Made by a program: the position numbers and the translations under genes. The notes beneath the pieces were generated by a model. The model did no database searches and was not told the DNA's origin. It saw nothing but the letters and a program-made list of their open reading frames with translations. This document shows positions 12,512-37,000 of a stretch of 64,000 nucleotides of DNA, piece after piece. Source of the stretch: Planktothricoides sp. SR001 (GTDB lineage Bacteria; Cyanobacteriota; Cyanobacteriia; Cyanobacteriales; Laspinemataceae); NCBI RefSeq assembly GCF_001276715.1, contig NZ_LIUQ01000001.1, positions 56,829-120,828 of the forward strand. Direction: 5' to 3'. Numbering within the stretch: position 1 is the stretch's first letter; each line of letters begins with the position of its first letter.

Positions 12512-12591
12512 TTTTATTTTCATTTATTTTCAGGGATGCCATCTATTAATCACTTATAATCACTTGAAAAATTCAATCAGGAGAAGAAAAA

Positions 12592-15500
12592 ATGACTCTG
12601 ACCCTCAAAGGATATCAAATCACTGAAAAAATTCACCAAGGAATCAACACAAAAATCTATCGGGGAATTCGCTTTGCCGACCAAAAGCCAGTGATTATAA
12701 AAATGTTGGTGGCAGATTATCCCACCCTGGAAGAATTAACTCAATTCAGAAATGAATATGAACTGAGTAAAAATATTCAAGAAATTCCCGGCATTGTCAC
12801 CCCCATAGAATTACTAAATTACCAAAATGGAATGGCGCTAATTTTAAATGACATGGGCGGGATTTCTCTGAAACAATATCTAGAACAAAAATCAGCCCAA
12901 TCTAGCCAAATTTCTGGCTTAAGCTATTCTGGCTTAAGCTTAAAAGAATTTTTCTCTATTGCCATTCAACTTGCTACTACTCTGGGGGAACTACACCAAA
13001 GGCAAATTGTCCACAAAGATATCAAACCGCAAAACATCATTATTAACCCGGAAAATGGGTCAGTCAAAATCACCGATTTCAGCATTGCTTCTCGCCTCAG
13101 CGAAGAAATTGCCACGGTGAGTAATCCCGACCAATTAGAAGGCACTCTAGCCTATATGTCCCCGGAACAAACCGGCAGAATGAATCGCACCTTAGATTAT
13201 CGCAGTGATTATTATTCTCTGGGAGTTACTTTTTATGAAATGCTCGCTGGCTGCCTGCCTTTTGAATCAGACGACCCCCTAGAATTAATTCACTGTCATA
13301 TTGCCAAAAAACCGCCCAAATTAAGTCAGTTTAATCCAGAAATTCCCCCAGCCATAGAAGGCTTAGTGCTGAAACTAATGGCCAAAGCTGCGGAAGACCG
13401 TTATCGCAGTGCCAACGGGCTAATGTATGACTTACAAACCTGTTGCCAACAGTTAGAAACAACCGGAACTGTTAACCTAATTCCGGGAGAAAGCGATCGC
13501 GCCGGTCAATTATTAATTGCCCAAAGACTCTATGGTCGAGATGCGGAAGTCACTCAACTAATGGAAACCTTCGACCGTGTTGCCAACCCCCCCGAACCTG
13601 GGCAAGCAGGGACAGAAATGATCCTCGTCTCTGGATATTCGGGAATTGGCAAAACCGCCTTAGTCTCAGAAGTACACAAACCCATCGTTAAAAGTCGGGG
13701 TTATTTTATCAGTGGCAAATTCGACCAGTATAAACGAAACATTCCTTATAGTTCTCTAATTCAAGCCTTTGCCGAACTAATTCGCCAACTGCTAACCGAA
13801 CCAGAAAGCGCCATTCAAACTTGGAAAAAACAACTATTAAATGCCCTAGGAAGCAACGGCCAAGTGATTTGTGATGTGATTCCCGAAGTCGCCCTAATTA
13901 TTGGCGAACAACCAGAAGTGCCCTCCCTCGGCCACACGGAATCCCAAAACCGTTTTAACCGGGTATTTCAGCAATTTATGGGCGTGTTTACCACCAAACA
14001 ACACCCCCTAGTAATTTTCCTCGACGACTTACAATGGGCAGACAGTGCTTCATTAAAATTAATCCACCTATTGCTGACTAATTCAGATAACAAATACCTG
14101 CTATTTATTGGCGCTTATCGTGACAATGAAGTCAGTCCCACTCATCCCACAATTCAAACCATAGAAAAAATTGCCGCTGCTGGAACTCCGGTAAATAATA
14201 TCCTTTTAAAGCCATTGGAACTTCACCAGGTTTGCGCCTTCCTTGCCGATACCCTAACCAACAGTGCGGGAACCGAAGAATTAGCGGAATTACTGACTCA
14301 CAAAACCCAGGGCAACCCATTTTTCTTAACCCAACTGCTGAAAACTTTATATGCAGAATCCTTGTTAGTCTATGACTATAGCCAAGGCTCATGGCAGTGG
14401 AATATCCAGGAAATTCAAGCCCTAGGCATCACCGATTATAATGTGGTAGAACTGATTGCCAGAAATCTGCAAAAACTTCCGGCATCTACCCAGGAAGTCT
14501 TAAAAATAGCCGCTTGTATTGGCCACCAATTTAATTTAGAAGTGCTGGGAATTGTGGCGGAAAAATCGCAGACAGCAACCGCAGGAGATTTATGGGCATC
14601 CTTACAATCCGGGTTAATTTTACCCCTGAGTAAAGATTATAAAATTCCTCTGGTATTTGGCAATGATAAGAAAAACGGGCAGCCGCGATCGGATGTGAAG
14701 ATAAATTACAAGTTTTTACATGATCGTGTACAACAAGCCGCCTATTCTTTGATTCCCGAATCTCAGAAAAAAGCCACCCATCTAAAAATTGGCCAATCCC
14801 TGCTCCGAAATACCAGTGAAGCTGAACGATCAGAGCATATCTTTGCCCTGGTCAACCAACTGAATTATGGAATTGATTTACTCAAAGACCAAAGGGAAAA
14901 AGATGAACTGGCTTATTTAAATCTTTTAGCGGGGAAAAAAGCCAAAGAAGCTACCGCTTATGAAGCGGCTGTCAAGTATTTAAGTTTGGGTATCGATCTA
15001 TTAAGCGAAGATAGTTGGGTCAGTAACTATGACTTGACATTAGCTTTATACACCGAAGCAATGGAAGCGGAATATTTCTATACCAACTTTGACCGGACAG
15101 AAGTTTTAGGGCAAGTGATTTTAGCAAAAGCAAAAACTTTGCTCGATCGCATCAAAGTTTATGAAATTCAGATGCAAATGTATGCGGCGCAACATCAAAT
15201 TATTAAAGCCATTGAGATCGGAATGCAAGCCTTAGACACCATGGGAATTTCTCTGACAAAAATCCCGAAAAATCAGGATAAAATCGTCAAATTGCCCGAC
15301 GTTGAGGAATTAGAGACTTTTCCAGAAATGACCGATCCATATCAACTAGCTGCTTTGCGGATTTTAATGAATTTATTAGCGCCAGCTTTGCACACAAAAT
15401 CTGATATATTTCCTCAGCTAGTGTTGACAATGGTGCATCTTGGTTTAGAAAAAGGTCATTCTGCCTTATCCGCTTTTACCTATAGTTGGTATGGCACCAT

Positions 15501-18500
15501 GTTGTGTGGTGCTGGGGAACTGGAAACTGGATATTTAGCGGCTCAATTGTCCTTGAAATTGCTAGAACAATTTCATGCGACTTCCCTAAAATGTCAAGTG
15601 TATAATATGGTTTATGCTTTTATTCTGCACTGGAAACAGCCCGTCAAAGATACCATTAATGCTTTCATTGATGGGATGCAAAGTGGTTTAGAAATGGGCG
15701 ATCTGGAATATGCCAGCTATTGTGCTTGTAAGTATTGCAGTTACTTATTTTTAAGTGGGGAATATTTGATTTCTGTAGCCGCCGAACAAGCGAAATACAT
15801 GAAATTACTGCGAAAACTGAAATATGAGATTTCTCTCAATGATGGCAGTATTTGGACTCAATTAACGGCAAATTTACAAGGGCGGGCTACTGATAAATAT
15901 CGGTTGATTGGGGAAACTTTTGATGAAGCGATCGCCTTACCTCGGTTGCAAGCTGCTAACGATAACTGGTCTTTATTCAACTTCCATCTAGCCAAAACCA
16001 TTTTGCTTTACATACATAAAGACCATCGCGGGGCGCTGCATCATGGGTTAATGGCAGTCGATTTTGTCGGTGCAGTGAGTGGGGCTTTGACCATGACCGC
16101 TCATAATTTTTACTATTCTTTAGTGCTGCTCAAAAATTATCCCAATGCCCTGGAAGAAAAACAAATCGAATACCTAAAACAAGTAGAAATCAACCAACAA
16201 AAATTACAGCAATGGGCGAACCATGCGCCGATGAATTTTCAGCATAAATATGACCTGGTAGCCGCAGAAAAAGCGCGAGTCTTGGGGCAAAACTTAGCAG
16301 CAATGGAACTATACGATCGCGCCATTTCTGGAGCGAAAGAAAACGAATATCTCCAGGAAGAAGCCCTAGCCAACGAACTAGCCGCCGAATTTTATCTATC
16401 TTTAGGACGAGAAAAAATCGGCAAAACCTATATCACCGATGCCTACTACACTTATGCCAAATGGGGCGCTGTAGCCAAAGTCCAAGACTTAGAAAGCGCA
16501 TATCCTCAATTATTAGAGCAAATTAAACAACAGGCAGGAAACAAAACTCTGGCTGATAAATCCACTCAAACCACCATTGTCAAAACCACCCTAGGCAATA
16601 CCGGCGCCCTGGACTTAGCCACCGTAATGAAAGCCTCCCTAGCCATTTCCAGTGAAATTGTTTTGGATAAATTACTCGGCCAATTAATCAACATTCTCCT
16701 AGAAAATGCCGGTGCCGAAAAAGCATTTTTATTCTTAAAAGAAAAAGCAGGATTAGGACTTGCGGCTAGTACCCAAGTCAACCAAGAGGCGATCGTCTAT
16801 CCTACACCCTACACCCTACACCCTACACCCTACACCCTACACCCTACACCCCCGAATACAGATTTGCCCCTGGGAGTGATCAACTATGTGCAACGAACGG
16901 GCAACCATCTGATGCTGGCTGATGCCCAAACCCAAGGTGTCTTTACCAATGACCCTTATATCACCCGGCATCAAGTCAAATCCTTGTTATGTGCGCCCAT
17001 TATTAAAGGGTCAAAATTAGTGGGCATTATCTATTTAGAAAATAACCTCACCACTGGGGCATTTACCAGCGATCGGCTGAAATTCTTACAACTGCTATCA
17101 GGACAAGCGGCTATCTCCTTAGAACTTGCCCGTTCCGTCAACGAAGTGCAAAACACCTTAGCCTATCTCAAAAGCATCCTCAACAACATTGCCGATGGCT
17201 TATTAGTCACCGATCGAACGGGTCGGATCACTCAATATAATCCCGCCCTATGCCATTTGTTTGGTTTAGCTTCATCTGCCTCCCTGGGAAGCCAATATTG
17301 CCACGAAGCATTAACCGTAGAAATTGGCACTTTGGTGACGCAAACCTTAAGCAAACCACAAGAAGTTTTGAGTGCAGAAATTAACCTAACTCCTGGGCGA
17401 ATTGGTGGGGCAGTAGCCACCGCCATTACCACAGACAAATCCCCTGAAGTGATTGGTTGTGCCATCATCATCCGGGATATCACGGCGGAAAAAGAAATCG
17501 ATCGCATGAAAACCGACTTTATCTCCACCGTCTCCCATGAACTCCGCACCCCATTAACCTCCGTGGTGGGATTTGCCAAAATTATCCATAAAAAGCTCAC
17601 GGAACAAATCACTCCCGCCTTAGTTTCAGCGGACAAAAAAACAGTGCGATCTGTGCAACAAATTGGCGACAATATTAATATTATCATTTCCGAAGGGGAA
17701 CGGCTGACCAACCTAATTAATGATGTGCTCGATATTGCCAAAATGGAAGCGGGTAAAATTGAATGGGTAATGCAGCCAGTCAACTTGGGCGAAATCATCG
17801 ATCGCGCCGTCAATGCCACCTCTTGTCTATGGCAAACTTCTGGACTACAGCTAATTAAACAAGTCCCCCATGAACTGCCAAAGGTCAAGGGCGATCCAGC
17901 CCGCTTACTTCAAGTGCTAATTAATCTAATTTCCAATGCGGTTAAATTCACCAACCAAGGTTCAATTACCATCACCGCCGCACAGCAATTTTCCCCAGAG
18001 GGAGGGGCGCAAATTATCGTTAGCGTCATTGATACGGGAATTGGCATTGCCCCGGAAAACCGGGAAAAAGTGTTTGAAAAATTCAAACAAGTCGGTGAAG
18101 TAATGACCGACAAACCCCAGGGAACTGGACTGGGACTGCCCATTTGCCAACAAATTATCGAACACCATGAAGGTCGCATTTGGGTGGAAAGCGAGTTAGC
18201 AGTTGGCAGTAATTTCTCCTTTGCCTTACCCTTAAACTCTTCTAATATTCAGGGAACAGAAAATCTAAACTTCGATACTCTCGTGCGACAATTAAAACAA
18301 AGTATTGTACCCAAGTCTTCGGAATCTACGGAAGAGCAAAAAACCATTCTGGTAGTAGATGACGAACCTTCCATTCGCTCGCTTCTGCGACAACAATTAG
18401 AAGACCAAGGGTATATCGTCAAAGAAGCTGCGGATGGCATGGAGGCGATATCCCAAGTCAAACAAGTGCCCCCGGATTTGATTATTTTAGATGTAATGAT

Positions 18501-18957
18501 GCCTGCGATCAACGGCTTTGATGTAGCGGCGGTACTGAAAAATAATCCCACCACAATGGATATCCCGATTATCATCTTATCCATCGTGGAAGATAAACAA
18601 CGGGGCTGGAAACTGGGGGTTGACCGTTACCTCACCAAACCCATTGATAGCGAAAAACTGTTGAAAAATATTGAGGTGCTAATTTCTCGCGGCAGTTCCC
18701 CTAAGAAAGTCATGGTAGTGGATCAAGATGTGTCCGCGATTAAGACCCTAACTGAGGTATTGCAAGCCAAAGGATATAGTGTGGTTGAAGCCTTGTCCGG
18801 TTCAGAATGTATTCAGAAAGCCTTAGCTGAAAAACCTGATATGATTATTGTGGATTCTCTTCTGTCACAGCAGCATGATTTGGTCAAAACTTTGCGCTTT
18901 GAAAAAGGGCTGGAAAACGTTTTATTTGTCTTGTTAGCTGACCGGCAAGAAGATTAA
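12592..18957 (+). CDS. Hybrid Ser/Thr kinase - ATPase - histidine kinase - receiver protein
   Basis: 2121 residues, a giant signalling protein type common in filamentous cyanobacteria. Order: Ser/Thr kinase (about 8-275; 'HKDIKPQN' catalytic loop, DFS in place of DFG); AAA/STAND-like ATPase with P-loop 'SGYSGIGKT' (about 348) and Walker B 'LVIFLDDLQWAD'; a long helical TPR-like region (about 700-1340); GAF (about 1355-1520); PAS (about 1521-1640); histidine kinase with 'VSHELRTPLTS' (His near 1648) and 'GTGLGLPIC'; receiver 1 (about 1917-2035; 'VDDEP', 'LIILDVMMP', 'YLTKP'). A second receiver-like domain (about 2039-2121) keeps 'MIIVDS' but ends before the conserved Lys. A (CCCTACA)n tandem repeat is read in frame inside the GAF domain (residues about 1403-1419). 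ATG has an AGGAGAAG ribosome-binding site, 80 bases after kinase 2, so it may share its transcript. Confidence 0.95.
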   Translation: MTLTLKGYQITEKIHQGINTKIYRGIRFADQKPVIIKMLVADYPTLEELTQFRNEYELSKNIQEIPGIVTPIELLNYQNGMALILNDMGGISLKQYLEQKSAQSSQISGLSYSGLSLKEFFSIAIQLATTLGELHQRQIVHKDIKPQNIIINPENGSVKITDFSIASRLSEEIATVSNPDQLEGTLAYMSPEQTGRMNRTLDYRSDYYSLGVTFYEMLAGCLPFESDDPLELIHCHIAKKPPKLSQFNPEIPPAIEGLVLKLMAKAAEDRYRSANGLMYDLQTCCQQLETTGTVNLIPGESDRAGQLLIAQRLYGRDAEVTQLMETFDRVANPPEPGQAGTEMILVSGYSGIGKTALVSEVHKPIVKSRGYFISGKFDQYKRNIPYSSLIQAFAELIRQLLTEPESAIQTWKKQLLNALGSNGQVICDVIPEVALIIGEQPEVPSLGHTESQNRFNRVFQQFMGVFTTKQHPLVIFLDDLQWADSASLKLIHLLLTNSDNKYLLFIGAYRDNEVSPTHPTIQTIEKIAAAGTPVNNILLKPLELHQVCAFLADTLTNSAGTEELAELLTHKTQGNPFFLTQLLKTLYAESLLVYDYSQGSWQWNIQEIQALGITDYNVVELIARNLQKLPASTQEVLKIAACIGHQFNLEVLGIVAEKSQTATAGDLWASLQSGLILPLSKDYKIPLVFGNDKKNGQPRSDVKINYKFLHDRVQQAAYSLIPESQKKATHLKIGQSLLRNTSEAERSEHIFALVNQLNYGIDLLKDQREKDELAYLNLLAGKKAKEATAYEAAVKYLSLGIDLLSEDSWVSNYDLTLALYTEAMEAEYFYTNFDRTEVLGQVILAKAKTLLDRIKVYEIQMQMYAAQHQIIKAIEIGMQALDTMGISLTKIPKNQDKIVKLPDVEELETFPEMTDPYQLAALRILMNLLAPALHTKSDIFPQLVLTMVHLGLEKGHSALSAFTYSWYGTMLCGAGELETGYLAAQLSLKLLEQFHATSLKCQVYNMVYAFILHWKQPVKDTINAFIDGMQSGLEMGDLEYASYCACKYCSYLFLSGEYLISVAAEQAKYMKLLRKLKYEISLNDGSIWTQLTANLQGRATDKYRLIGETFDEAIALPRLQAANDNWSLFNFHLAKTILLYIHKDHRGALHHGLMAVDFVGAVSGALTMTAHNFYYSLVLLKNYPNALEEKQIEYLKQVEINQQKLQQWANHAPMNFQHKYDLVAAEKARVLGQNLAAMELYDRAISGAKENEYLQEEALANELAAEFYLSLGREKIGKTYITDAYYTYAKWGAVAKVQDLESAYPQLLEQIKQQAGNKTLADKSTQTTIVKTTLGNTGALDLATVMKASLAISSEIVLDKLLGQLINILLENAGAEKAFLFLKEKAGLGLAASTQVNQEAIVYPTPYTLHPTPYTLHPTPPNTDLPLGVINYVQRTGNHLMLADAQTQGVFTNDPYITRHQVKSLLCAPIIKGSKLVGIIYLENNLTTGAFTSDRLKFLQLLSGQAAISLELARSVNEVQNTLAYLKSILNNIADGLLVTDRTGRITQYNPALCHLFGLASSASLGSQYCHEALTVEIGTLVTQTLSKPQEVLSAEINLTPGRIGGAVATAITTDKSPEVIGCAIIIRDITAEKEIDRMKTDFISTVSHELRTPLTSVVGFAKIIHKKLTEQITPALVSADKKTVRSVQQIGDNINIIISEGERLTNLINDVLDIAKMEAGKIEWVMQPVNLGEIIDRAVNATSCLWQTSGLQLIKQVPHELPKVKGDPARLLQVLINLISNAVKFTNQGSITITAAQQFSPEGGAQIIVSVIDTGIGIAPENREKVFEKFKQVGEVMTDKPQGTGLGLPICQQIIEHHEGRIWVESELAVGSNFSFALPLNSSNIQGTENLNFDTLVRQLKQSIVPKSSESTEEQKTILVVDDEPSIRSLLRQQLEDQGYIVKEAADGMEAISQVKQVPPDLIILDVMMPAINGFDVAAVLKNNPTTMDIPIIILSIVEDKQRGWKLGVDRYLTKPIDSEKLLKNIEVLISRGSSPKKVMVVDQDVSAIKTLTEVLQAKGYSVVEALSGSECIQKALAEKPDMIIVDSLLSQQHDLVKTLRFEKGLENVLFVLLADRQED
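16801..16851. repeat. In-frame heptanucleotide repeat (CCTACAC)7 inside a GAF domain
   Basis: Seven perfect copies of the 7-base unit run from 16801 to 16849. Three units make one peptide period, giving repeats of 'LHPTPYT' in the hybrid kinase. The same unit, on the opposite strand, forms intergenic (GGGTGTA)n at 21148-21180. Confidence 0.95.
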
Positions 18958-18958
18958 T

Positions 18959-19083
18959 TCCAGAAACCGGGTTTATCTCGCAAATCTTTGTGTATTCCAG
19001 AAACCGGGTTTCTATCCCAAATCTTTGCCGAAGTACAAGAATTACATAGAAACCCGGTTTTTTTATGTTTATCACCCGGTTTA
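18959..19083. repeat. AGAAACCGGGTTTCT-type repeat cluster, possible terminator
   Basis: Two direct copies of CAGAAACCGGGTTT (18961 and 18998) and inverted copies (AGAAACCCGGTTTTTTT at about 19048, ACCCGGTTTATT at about 19073). The inverted copy followed by seven T could terminate the hybrid kinase transcript. The cluster begins one base after the kinase stop codon, where the last receiver domain is cut short. Confidence 0.85.
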
Positions 19084-19117
19084 TTAACAAAAATAATCTA
19101 AAAAATAGGAAATTCTT

Positions 19118-19492
19118 ATGTCTAAAAAGATATTAATTGTCGATGATGAACCCCATATCAGAATTTTGATTTCGCAAACCCTGGAAGAATTGGAGGATGA
19201 AGGGGTAGAATTGCTAACAGCCACCAATGGGGAAGAAGCATTAGAAATCATTCAACAGGAAAAGCCTGATTTGGTATTTCTTGATGTAATGATGCCAAAA
19301 ATGAACGGTTTTGAAGTTTGTCAAAAGGTGAAAAATGAGTTAGGAATGCCAAATATTTACATTATTATGCTCACCGCCAAAGGCCAAGAGTTTGATAAAC
19401 AAAAAGGCAATGAAGCCGGGGCAGACCTTTACATGACCAAACCTTTTGACCCCGATGAAATTTTGGCAAAAGCAATGGAAGTTTTAGGTTAA
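19118..19492 (+). CDS. Stand-alone response regulator receiver
   Basis: 124 residues, a single CheY-like receiver domain without an output domain. The acidic pocket is 'VDDEP' (Asp9, Asp10), the phospho-acceptor is Asp56 in 'LVFLDVMMP', the switch Thr is Thr86 and the conserved Lys is Lys108 in 'YMTKPF'. ATG at 19118 is preceded by TAGGAA. It is the only free receiver in the cluster and could take phosphate from either receiver-less kinase upstream or from the hybrid; this is an inference from position. Confidence 0.93.
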   Translation: MSKKILIVDDEPHIRILISQTLEELEDEGVELLTATNGEEALEIIQQEKPDLVFLDVMMPKMNGFEVCQKVKNELGMPNIYIIMLTAKGQEFDKQKGNEAGADLYMTKPFDPDEILAKAMEVLG

Positions 19493-19527
19493 TTCCCTCC
19501 AAGAAACAGGCAGAGGTTAGAAACCGT

Positions 19528-19623
19528 CGGGGGTTTTAACCCCCGCCTCATAGCGCAAGTCGGATAAATCCGACTAAAATTATATAATTTAAAATTCCGA
19601 ATTTCAGTCGGTTTTAACCGACT
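19528..19623. repeat. Three small intergenic palindromes
   Basis: CGGGGGTT/AACCCCCG (19528-19545), AGTCGGAT/ATCCGACT (19558-19575) and AGTCGGTT/AACCGACT (19606-19623) are perfect short inverted repeats downstream of the receiver gene. The first could help end transcription, but none is followed by a T-run. Confidence 0.7.
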
Positions 19624-19655: not shown

Positions 19656-19792
19656 CGGAATAACGGAATAACCGAATAACGGAATAACGGAATAACGGAA
19701 TAACGGGATAACGGAATAACGGAATAACGGAATAACGGAATAACCGGATAAACGGATAAACGGATAAACGGATAACGGAATAACCAGATAAC
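19656..19792. repeat. Octanucleotide tandem repeat (CGGAATAA)n
   Basis: About 17 copies of an 8-base unit CGGAATAA, drifting to CGGATAAA near the distal end. Open frames across it on either strand are repeat artefacts. Confidence 0.92.
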
Positions 19793-21147: not shown

Positions 21148-21228
21148 GGGGGGTGTAGGGTGTAGGGTGTAGGGTGTAGGGGGAAGAGGGGGAAGAGGGG
21201 GAAGAGGGGGAAGAGGGGGAAGAGGGGA
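21148..21228. repeat. Adjacent (GGGTGTA)n and (GGGGGAAGA)n tandem repeats
   Basis: About four copies of a 7-base unit run directly into about five copies of a 9-base unit. A 17-base direct repeat containing CACACTCCGATGGCGGC follows (about 21239 and 21269). Together these fill the 267-base gap before the aminotransferase gene. Confidence 0.9.
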
Positions 21229-21409
21229 AATTTCCTTCCCACACTCCGATGGCGGCCTCCCACACCCCCCACACTCCGATGGCGGCTCCCCACACTCCCC
21301 ACACTCCCCTAACAGTGGCGGATCGGCGGAAACATCGTGCATAACAATAGTAGGGGCGCTTCGGCTTGCGCCCGCTATCAATGGCAAAAATTGTTTTAAA
21401 TCAGCACTT

Positions 21410-36854: not shown

Positions 36855-37000
36855 AATTGATAATTGATAATTAAACCCAGTTATCAATTATCAATTATCA
36901 ATTACTAGCGAAAAACAACAAACAACAGGGAACAGGGAACAGGGAACAGGGAACAGGGAACAGGGAACAGGGAACAGGGAACAGGGAACAGGGAACAGGA
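36855..37000. repeat. 16-bp AT hairpin and (AACAGGG)n tandem repeat
   Basis: A perfect inverted repeat (36855-36870 and 36881-36896, 10-base loop) follows lepB and could end transcription in either direction. It is followed by about 11 copies of AACAGGG (36924-37000). Three overlapping minus-strand open frames across the array are repeat artefacts. Confidence 0.9.

Follow-up and report, generated by a model that had tools for sequence, protein, structure and literature searches.

A dispersed heptamer repeat, likely tolerated in a length-variable GAF loop of a giant hybrid kinase

A perfect CCTACAC array is read within a GAF domain

We analyzed a 64,000-nucleotide stretch of Planktothricoides sp. 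SR001 DNA (the window), in which one open reading frame (ORF) encodes a giant hybrid kinase (Table 1). Within this ORF, 51 nt consist of 7.3 perfect CCTACAC units, which can be seen directly in the sequence and which TRF reports with a period of 7 and a 100% match. The Pfam match to GAF encloses the residues that the array encodes. TRF, the ORF, and Pfam thus bear out the sequence-only reading, which had placed seven perfect CCTACAC units inside the GAF domain of a giant hybrid kinase. The longest perfect period-7 runs in 30 first-order Markov simulations of 64 kb each were 13 to 20 nt, versus the 51 nt of this array. The longest such run of the window is made of a different heptamer, AACAGGG (76 nt), and its further perfect period-7 runs of at least 24 nt are GGGTGTA (CCTACAC on the opposite strand), TTGTTAG, and TTATCAA. 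Several different heptamer runs in one window suggest that this genome is rich in such repeats. The C-rich strand of the CCTACAC repeat is free of stop codons in all frames; in the G-rich direction, a TAG is reached within three units in any frame.

Table 1. Positions of the array, the kinase, and its domains in the window
Feature	Position	Strand	Details
Giant hybrid kinase ORF, 2,121 aa	12592..18957	+	STPK, AAA_16, GAF, PAS, HisKA, HATPase_c, two receiver stretches (Pfam)
GAF domain holding the insert, residues 1358-1510	16663..17121	+	Pfam PF01590, E 1.7e-13; AlphaFold2; PDB fold matches
(CCTACAC)7.3 perfect tandem array	16801..16851	+	Residues 1404-1420, peptide PTPYTLHPTPYTLHPTP; sequence, TRF
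PAS region, residues 1525-1634	17164..17493	+	Pfam; beyond the stop upon frameshift
HisKA + HATPase_c, residues 1639-1882	17506..18237	+	Pfam; SHELRTP at residue 1648; beyond the stop upon frameshift
Receiver stretch with the best score, residues 1919-2027	18346..18672	+	Pfam; two stretches counted
Second CCTACAC-heptamer array (as GGGTGTA)	21151..21181		Outside long ORFs; one unit shorter in G001

The heptamer is dispersed and lies mostly outside longer ORFs

We searched the window's own genome (G000), the single-contig assembly of a second strain of the same species (G001), and a sibling species (G002). A three-unit CCTACAC pattern gave 186 overlapping hits in G000, versus 0 for the reversed control. 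The five-unit pattern gave 66 overlapping hits in G000, 106 in G001, and 57 in G002; counted from the listed positions, the 66 hits in G000 form 22 arrays of at least five units. A four-unit pattern was found in 26 of 243 genomes of the host's order and in 4 of the 14 genomes of its family (G000, G001, G002, and G013).

An ORF of at least 200 aa, the threshold of this test, spans 2 of the 22 arrays in G000; genes shorter than 200 aa are outside its scope. One of the two is the kinase, and the other is a 503-aa ORF at locus L126 that has no Pfam match. Adding five loci with shorter arrays to the kinase and the 21 other arrays of at least five units gives 2 of 27. At L119 and at L169, one end of a longer ORF overlaps the array. 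A 311-aa ORF at the G001 locus L153 was rejected as a further coding array, since its J-domain-like start, in our own reading, comes after the array.

STRR heptamers are known from Calothrix PCC 7601, and the CCTACAC repeat resembles them as a heptanucleotide tandem repeat in a cyanobacterial host. It fits a dispersed heptamer of the STRR kind: its unit is a 7-nt tandem unit, and its many arrays lie mostly outside genes and, at some loci, vary in unit number between strains. A passage of PMC4692102 mentions three heptanucleotides for Calothrix PCC 7601. Other passages of that paper describe the G-rich heptamers GGGGA(C/T)T of Nostoc PCC 7120 and GGGAATC of Xanthomonas as dispersed, mostly intergenic (68% for the Nostoc repeats), and quadruplex forming in vitro, with four units preferred and more stable surroundings. 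As far as these passages go, the CCTACAC repeat is like them in its dispersal, in a GGG run per unit, in a mostly extragenic position with some intragenic cases, and in a variable unit number. The claim that heptamers are usually intergenic is thus roughly true here, but intragenic heptamers were already known (PMC4692102, in the passages cited).

The repeat differs from the Nostoc and Xanthomonas heptamers in its unit, GGGTGTA, and in that a quadruplex is known for theirs, whereas here the spacing of GGG runs makes one conceivable. A role at the DNA level would have the G-rich template strand, (GGGTGTA)n, fold into a quadruplex and thereby influence transcription or replication. In its favor are the minus strand, where GGG recurs every 7 nt, and the in vitro behavior of other G-rich heptamers in the cited part of PMC4692102. 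Our fold tool, which may not model quadruplexes, gave no structure for this strand, and we regard such a role as very doubtful.

Unit numbers differ between strains at other loci

To compare the two strains, we paired 22 stretches with 29 arrays; L120, whose three arrays had no right anchor, was left out. Whole-unit differences between G000 and G001 were found at 6 of the 26 anchored arrays (L119, +5; L121, +1; L128, -1; L129, +1; L131, +2; and L133, -1), which indicates that the repeat slips. All six have about six or more units. L129 was counted despite other indels nearby. At L121, a one-unit difference was found despite 0 mismatches in 5,101 aligned bp; at L117, the array is unchanged, with 0 mismatches in 5,001 bp. 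The remaining 20 of the 26 arrays showed no clean whole-unit change. At L114, L115, L118, L125, L127, L132, and L168, the length differs next to the array or at its edge, and these differences were not counted as whole-unit changes. For the G000 loci L123, L124, L169, and L173, the G001 stretches retrieved included no partner. L160, the G001 partner of L120, which is outside the 26, has other unit numbers.

Among the period-7 rows of the window, 8 of 11 keep their length in G001. At window position 21151, where the array is one unit shorter in G001, the anchored segment is 11 bp longer in that strain, and its right anchor falls in neighboring repeats. The AACAGGG array at 36924 is 7 bp shorter in G001. 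Also shorter, by 48 bp, is an octamer array (CGGAATAA) at window positions 19656 to 19784.

The kinase array is identical in G001, with the same copy number and in frame. We found that it lies in a 7,042-bp block (12555 to 19596) without differences between G000 and G001, and the octamer array adjoins this block. The invariance of the kinase array therefore says little, and we rejected it as an argument against switching. Aligned blocks elsewhere are 98.4 to 99.7% identical between the strains, versus 100% across this block, suggesting recent exchange or strong conservation. The ORF-internal array of L126 (L164 in G001) is also unchanged, with 26 mismatches in 5,071 bp. That both ORF-internal arrays are unchanged could hint at constraint, with tiny numbers.

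Short-read assemblies are error-prone at short tandem repeats, and an assembly error had been named as an outcome that would undo the reading of the array. The two strains have differences elsewhere, yet their assemblies, one of 165 contigs and one of a single contig, give exactly the same sequence at this place, which argues against such an error; we consider it extremely improbable.

The sibling species carries a different insert in the same loop

In G002, there are two tandem copies of the kinase (L031, 5933 to 18862), versus a single copy at the corresponding place in the window. The GAF loops of the two copies are nearly identical, perhaps through gene conversion. Both encode an unrelated peptide, from a sequence that matches a dispersed palindrome at 23 of 29 positions; the best matches in 20 simulated 20.8-kb sequences were 16 to 20. 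This palindrome pattern of 28 to 29 bp occurs at 29 places in G002, 2 in G000, and 3 in G001. GTCCCTACACCCCCG stands at the right edge of the sibling's palindromic insert. Dispersed REP and RPE palindromes are described, in a passage of PMC3733652, as occurring in frame within genes. The loop sites are like these cases in that a dispersed repeat is read within an ORF, and the sibling's insert resembles those palindromes, whereas the insert in the window consists of tandem units. The G002 palindrome has GTAG/CTAC at both ends able to pair, and the same source, in the part cited, describes GTAG-tagged REP termini as unpaired.

The CCTACAC heptamer is also found in G002 just upstream of the kinase gene (as GTGTAGG, 50 nt; L031, 5775 to 5824). 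In the window, TRF reports none ahead of the kinase gene. Behind the same gene, the two species have different repeats (window 21151 to 21309 and L031 20645 to 20831), which indicates that repeat content there turns over quickly.

We compared the loop among relatives. It spans 53 to 80 aa in one comparison, which drew on the best 79 of 441 candidate loci and on 13 further loci, not all of which yielded rows, and 59 to 79 aa in a second. The commonest span is 59 aa; here it is 69 aa. The best of five AlphaFold2 models of the GAF domain has a mean pLDDT of 80.6 (range, 61.8 to 80.6). Most core blocks have a pLDDT of 81 to 92, and model residues 85 to 98 fall below 50; the insert is at 81 to 97. 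GAF proteins are among the best PDB matches by sequence and by fold. These predictions suggest that the insert is probably a disordered loop within a GAF fold. In the comparison of orthologues that had been proposed for the insertion, the loop varies in length, and the sibling carries another, nontandem dispersed repeat there.

The insert could instead be a functional linker without an on/off role, its PTPYTLH heptapeptides adjusting the GAF domain by three units at a time. Consistent with a linker, it adds about 10 residues beyond the common 59-aa span and is predicted to be disordered. Its sequence is not conserved, however, with an unrelated peptide in the sibling, and the peptide is merely what the dispersed DNA repeat encodes. 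We find this explanation quite improbable.

Changes of one or two units would truncate the kinase

We simulated changes in the unit number of the kinase array. Gain or loss of one or two units brings a stop 28 or 71 nt past the array, so that the shifted kinase would end after about 1,410 to 1,460 residues; with three units gained or lost, the frame stays open. Together with the Pfam positions, this upholds the prediction that a one-unit change cuts off the PAS, kinase, and receiver domains, and the same holds for two units. Two GTG codons, at residues 1429 and 1433, come after the array, and in one of the shifted frames the stop lies close to residue 1429. Reinitiation at these codons was given no weight, as the sibling is without the residue-1429 GTG.

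All four kinase sequences, from the two strains and the two sibling-species copies, have an open frame. Using our own Nei-Gojobori script, we compared the window's kinase with the two G002 copies. Downstream of the repeat, dN/dS was 0.133 and 0.16, versus 0.257 and 0.209 upstream. These values speak for a tolerated repeat whose shifted alleles are mostly lost, but they span time before the repeat arose and are compatible with short-lived off states.

It had been proposed that the array could act as an on/off phase switch. As a phase-variable contingency locus, it would toggle the PAS-kinase-receiver half by slippage. The precedent is the coding heptamer of neuO in E. coli K1, which a passage of PMC3046976 describes as a working switch. 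As in that VNTR, the coding unit is 7 nt, three units make a heptapeptide, and other changes shift the frame. According to the same passage, however, the neuO array begins two nt past the start codon, and phase variation has been demonstrated for it, whereas the kinase array is in mid-gene and invariant in two strains. Work cited in the part of PMC4692102 considered here found SSRs suppressed in mid-gene and enriched near termini. Of the switch proposal, the frame arithmetic stands as the sole support at the kinase, and we saw no sign of switching there: the array is in frame with equal unit number in both strains (though inside the identical block), all four kinase sequences of the strains and the sibling have an open frame, and the sibling's insert at this spot is different and nontandem. 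Whole-unit changes of the same heptamer at other loci speak for the switch. On balance, we think a switch unlikely. We rate as rather improbable its most far-reaching form, a slippage switch in a central signaling kinase, with the contingency locus belonging to a sensor protein and not to a surface structure; if true, unit changes would sever the histidine kinase-receiver half from the Ser/Thr kinase-AAA half.

The repeat is likely a tolerated, slippery passenger

We conclude that the array is likely a slippery, dispersed genomic repeat, tolerated in a length-variable and probably disordered GAF loop, and that shifted alleles are mostly lost. According to this model, a heptamer dispersed in the genus would have come to occupy the GAF loop of a giant hybrid kinase. 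Its tolerance there is suggested by the stop-free C-rich strand, a total insert that keeps the frame, and a loop that accepts inserts. Arrays would grow and shrink by replication slippage, a process that we infer for the kinase from unit changes shown elsewhere. One- or two-unit changes would most likely be nulls removed by selection, and three-unit steps would alter loop length only. The array may have grown from a single resident unit, as the sibling's GTCCCTACACCCCCG beside its palindromic insert suggests. The perfection of the kinase array points to a young or maintained repeat and counts against its being a passenger.

On this explanation, the locus illustrates a way in which giant sensor kinases of filamentous cyanobacteria may acquire dispersed tandem repeats within their coding frames; slippage there could yield null or length variants. 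It also offers a concrete place for asking whether cyanobacteria use tandem repeats as switches. A literature search with peptide and unit terms gave no relevant co-mention among the matches listed, which does not prove absence; PMC10581220 was set aside, as its subject, in the part cited, is an IS insertion.

Repeats are also found in related kinases. A Symploca kinase has a degenerate GGGGAGAT array in a neighboring GAF turn, about 10 residues away in our own reading of the alignment, and this octamer is dispersed in that Symploca genome (33 overlapping three-unit hits). Outside the GAF region, 7 of the 79 related kinase ORFs (the best 79 of 441 candidates) carry period-7 arrays with a TRF score of at least 50 (L044, L065, L076, L077, L081, L096, and L104), after ORFs of fewer than 800 codons and minus-strand matches had been dropped. 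The Symploca kinase ORFs L065 and L076 each have several different heptamer or octamer arrays.
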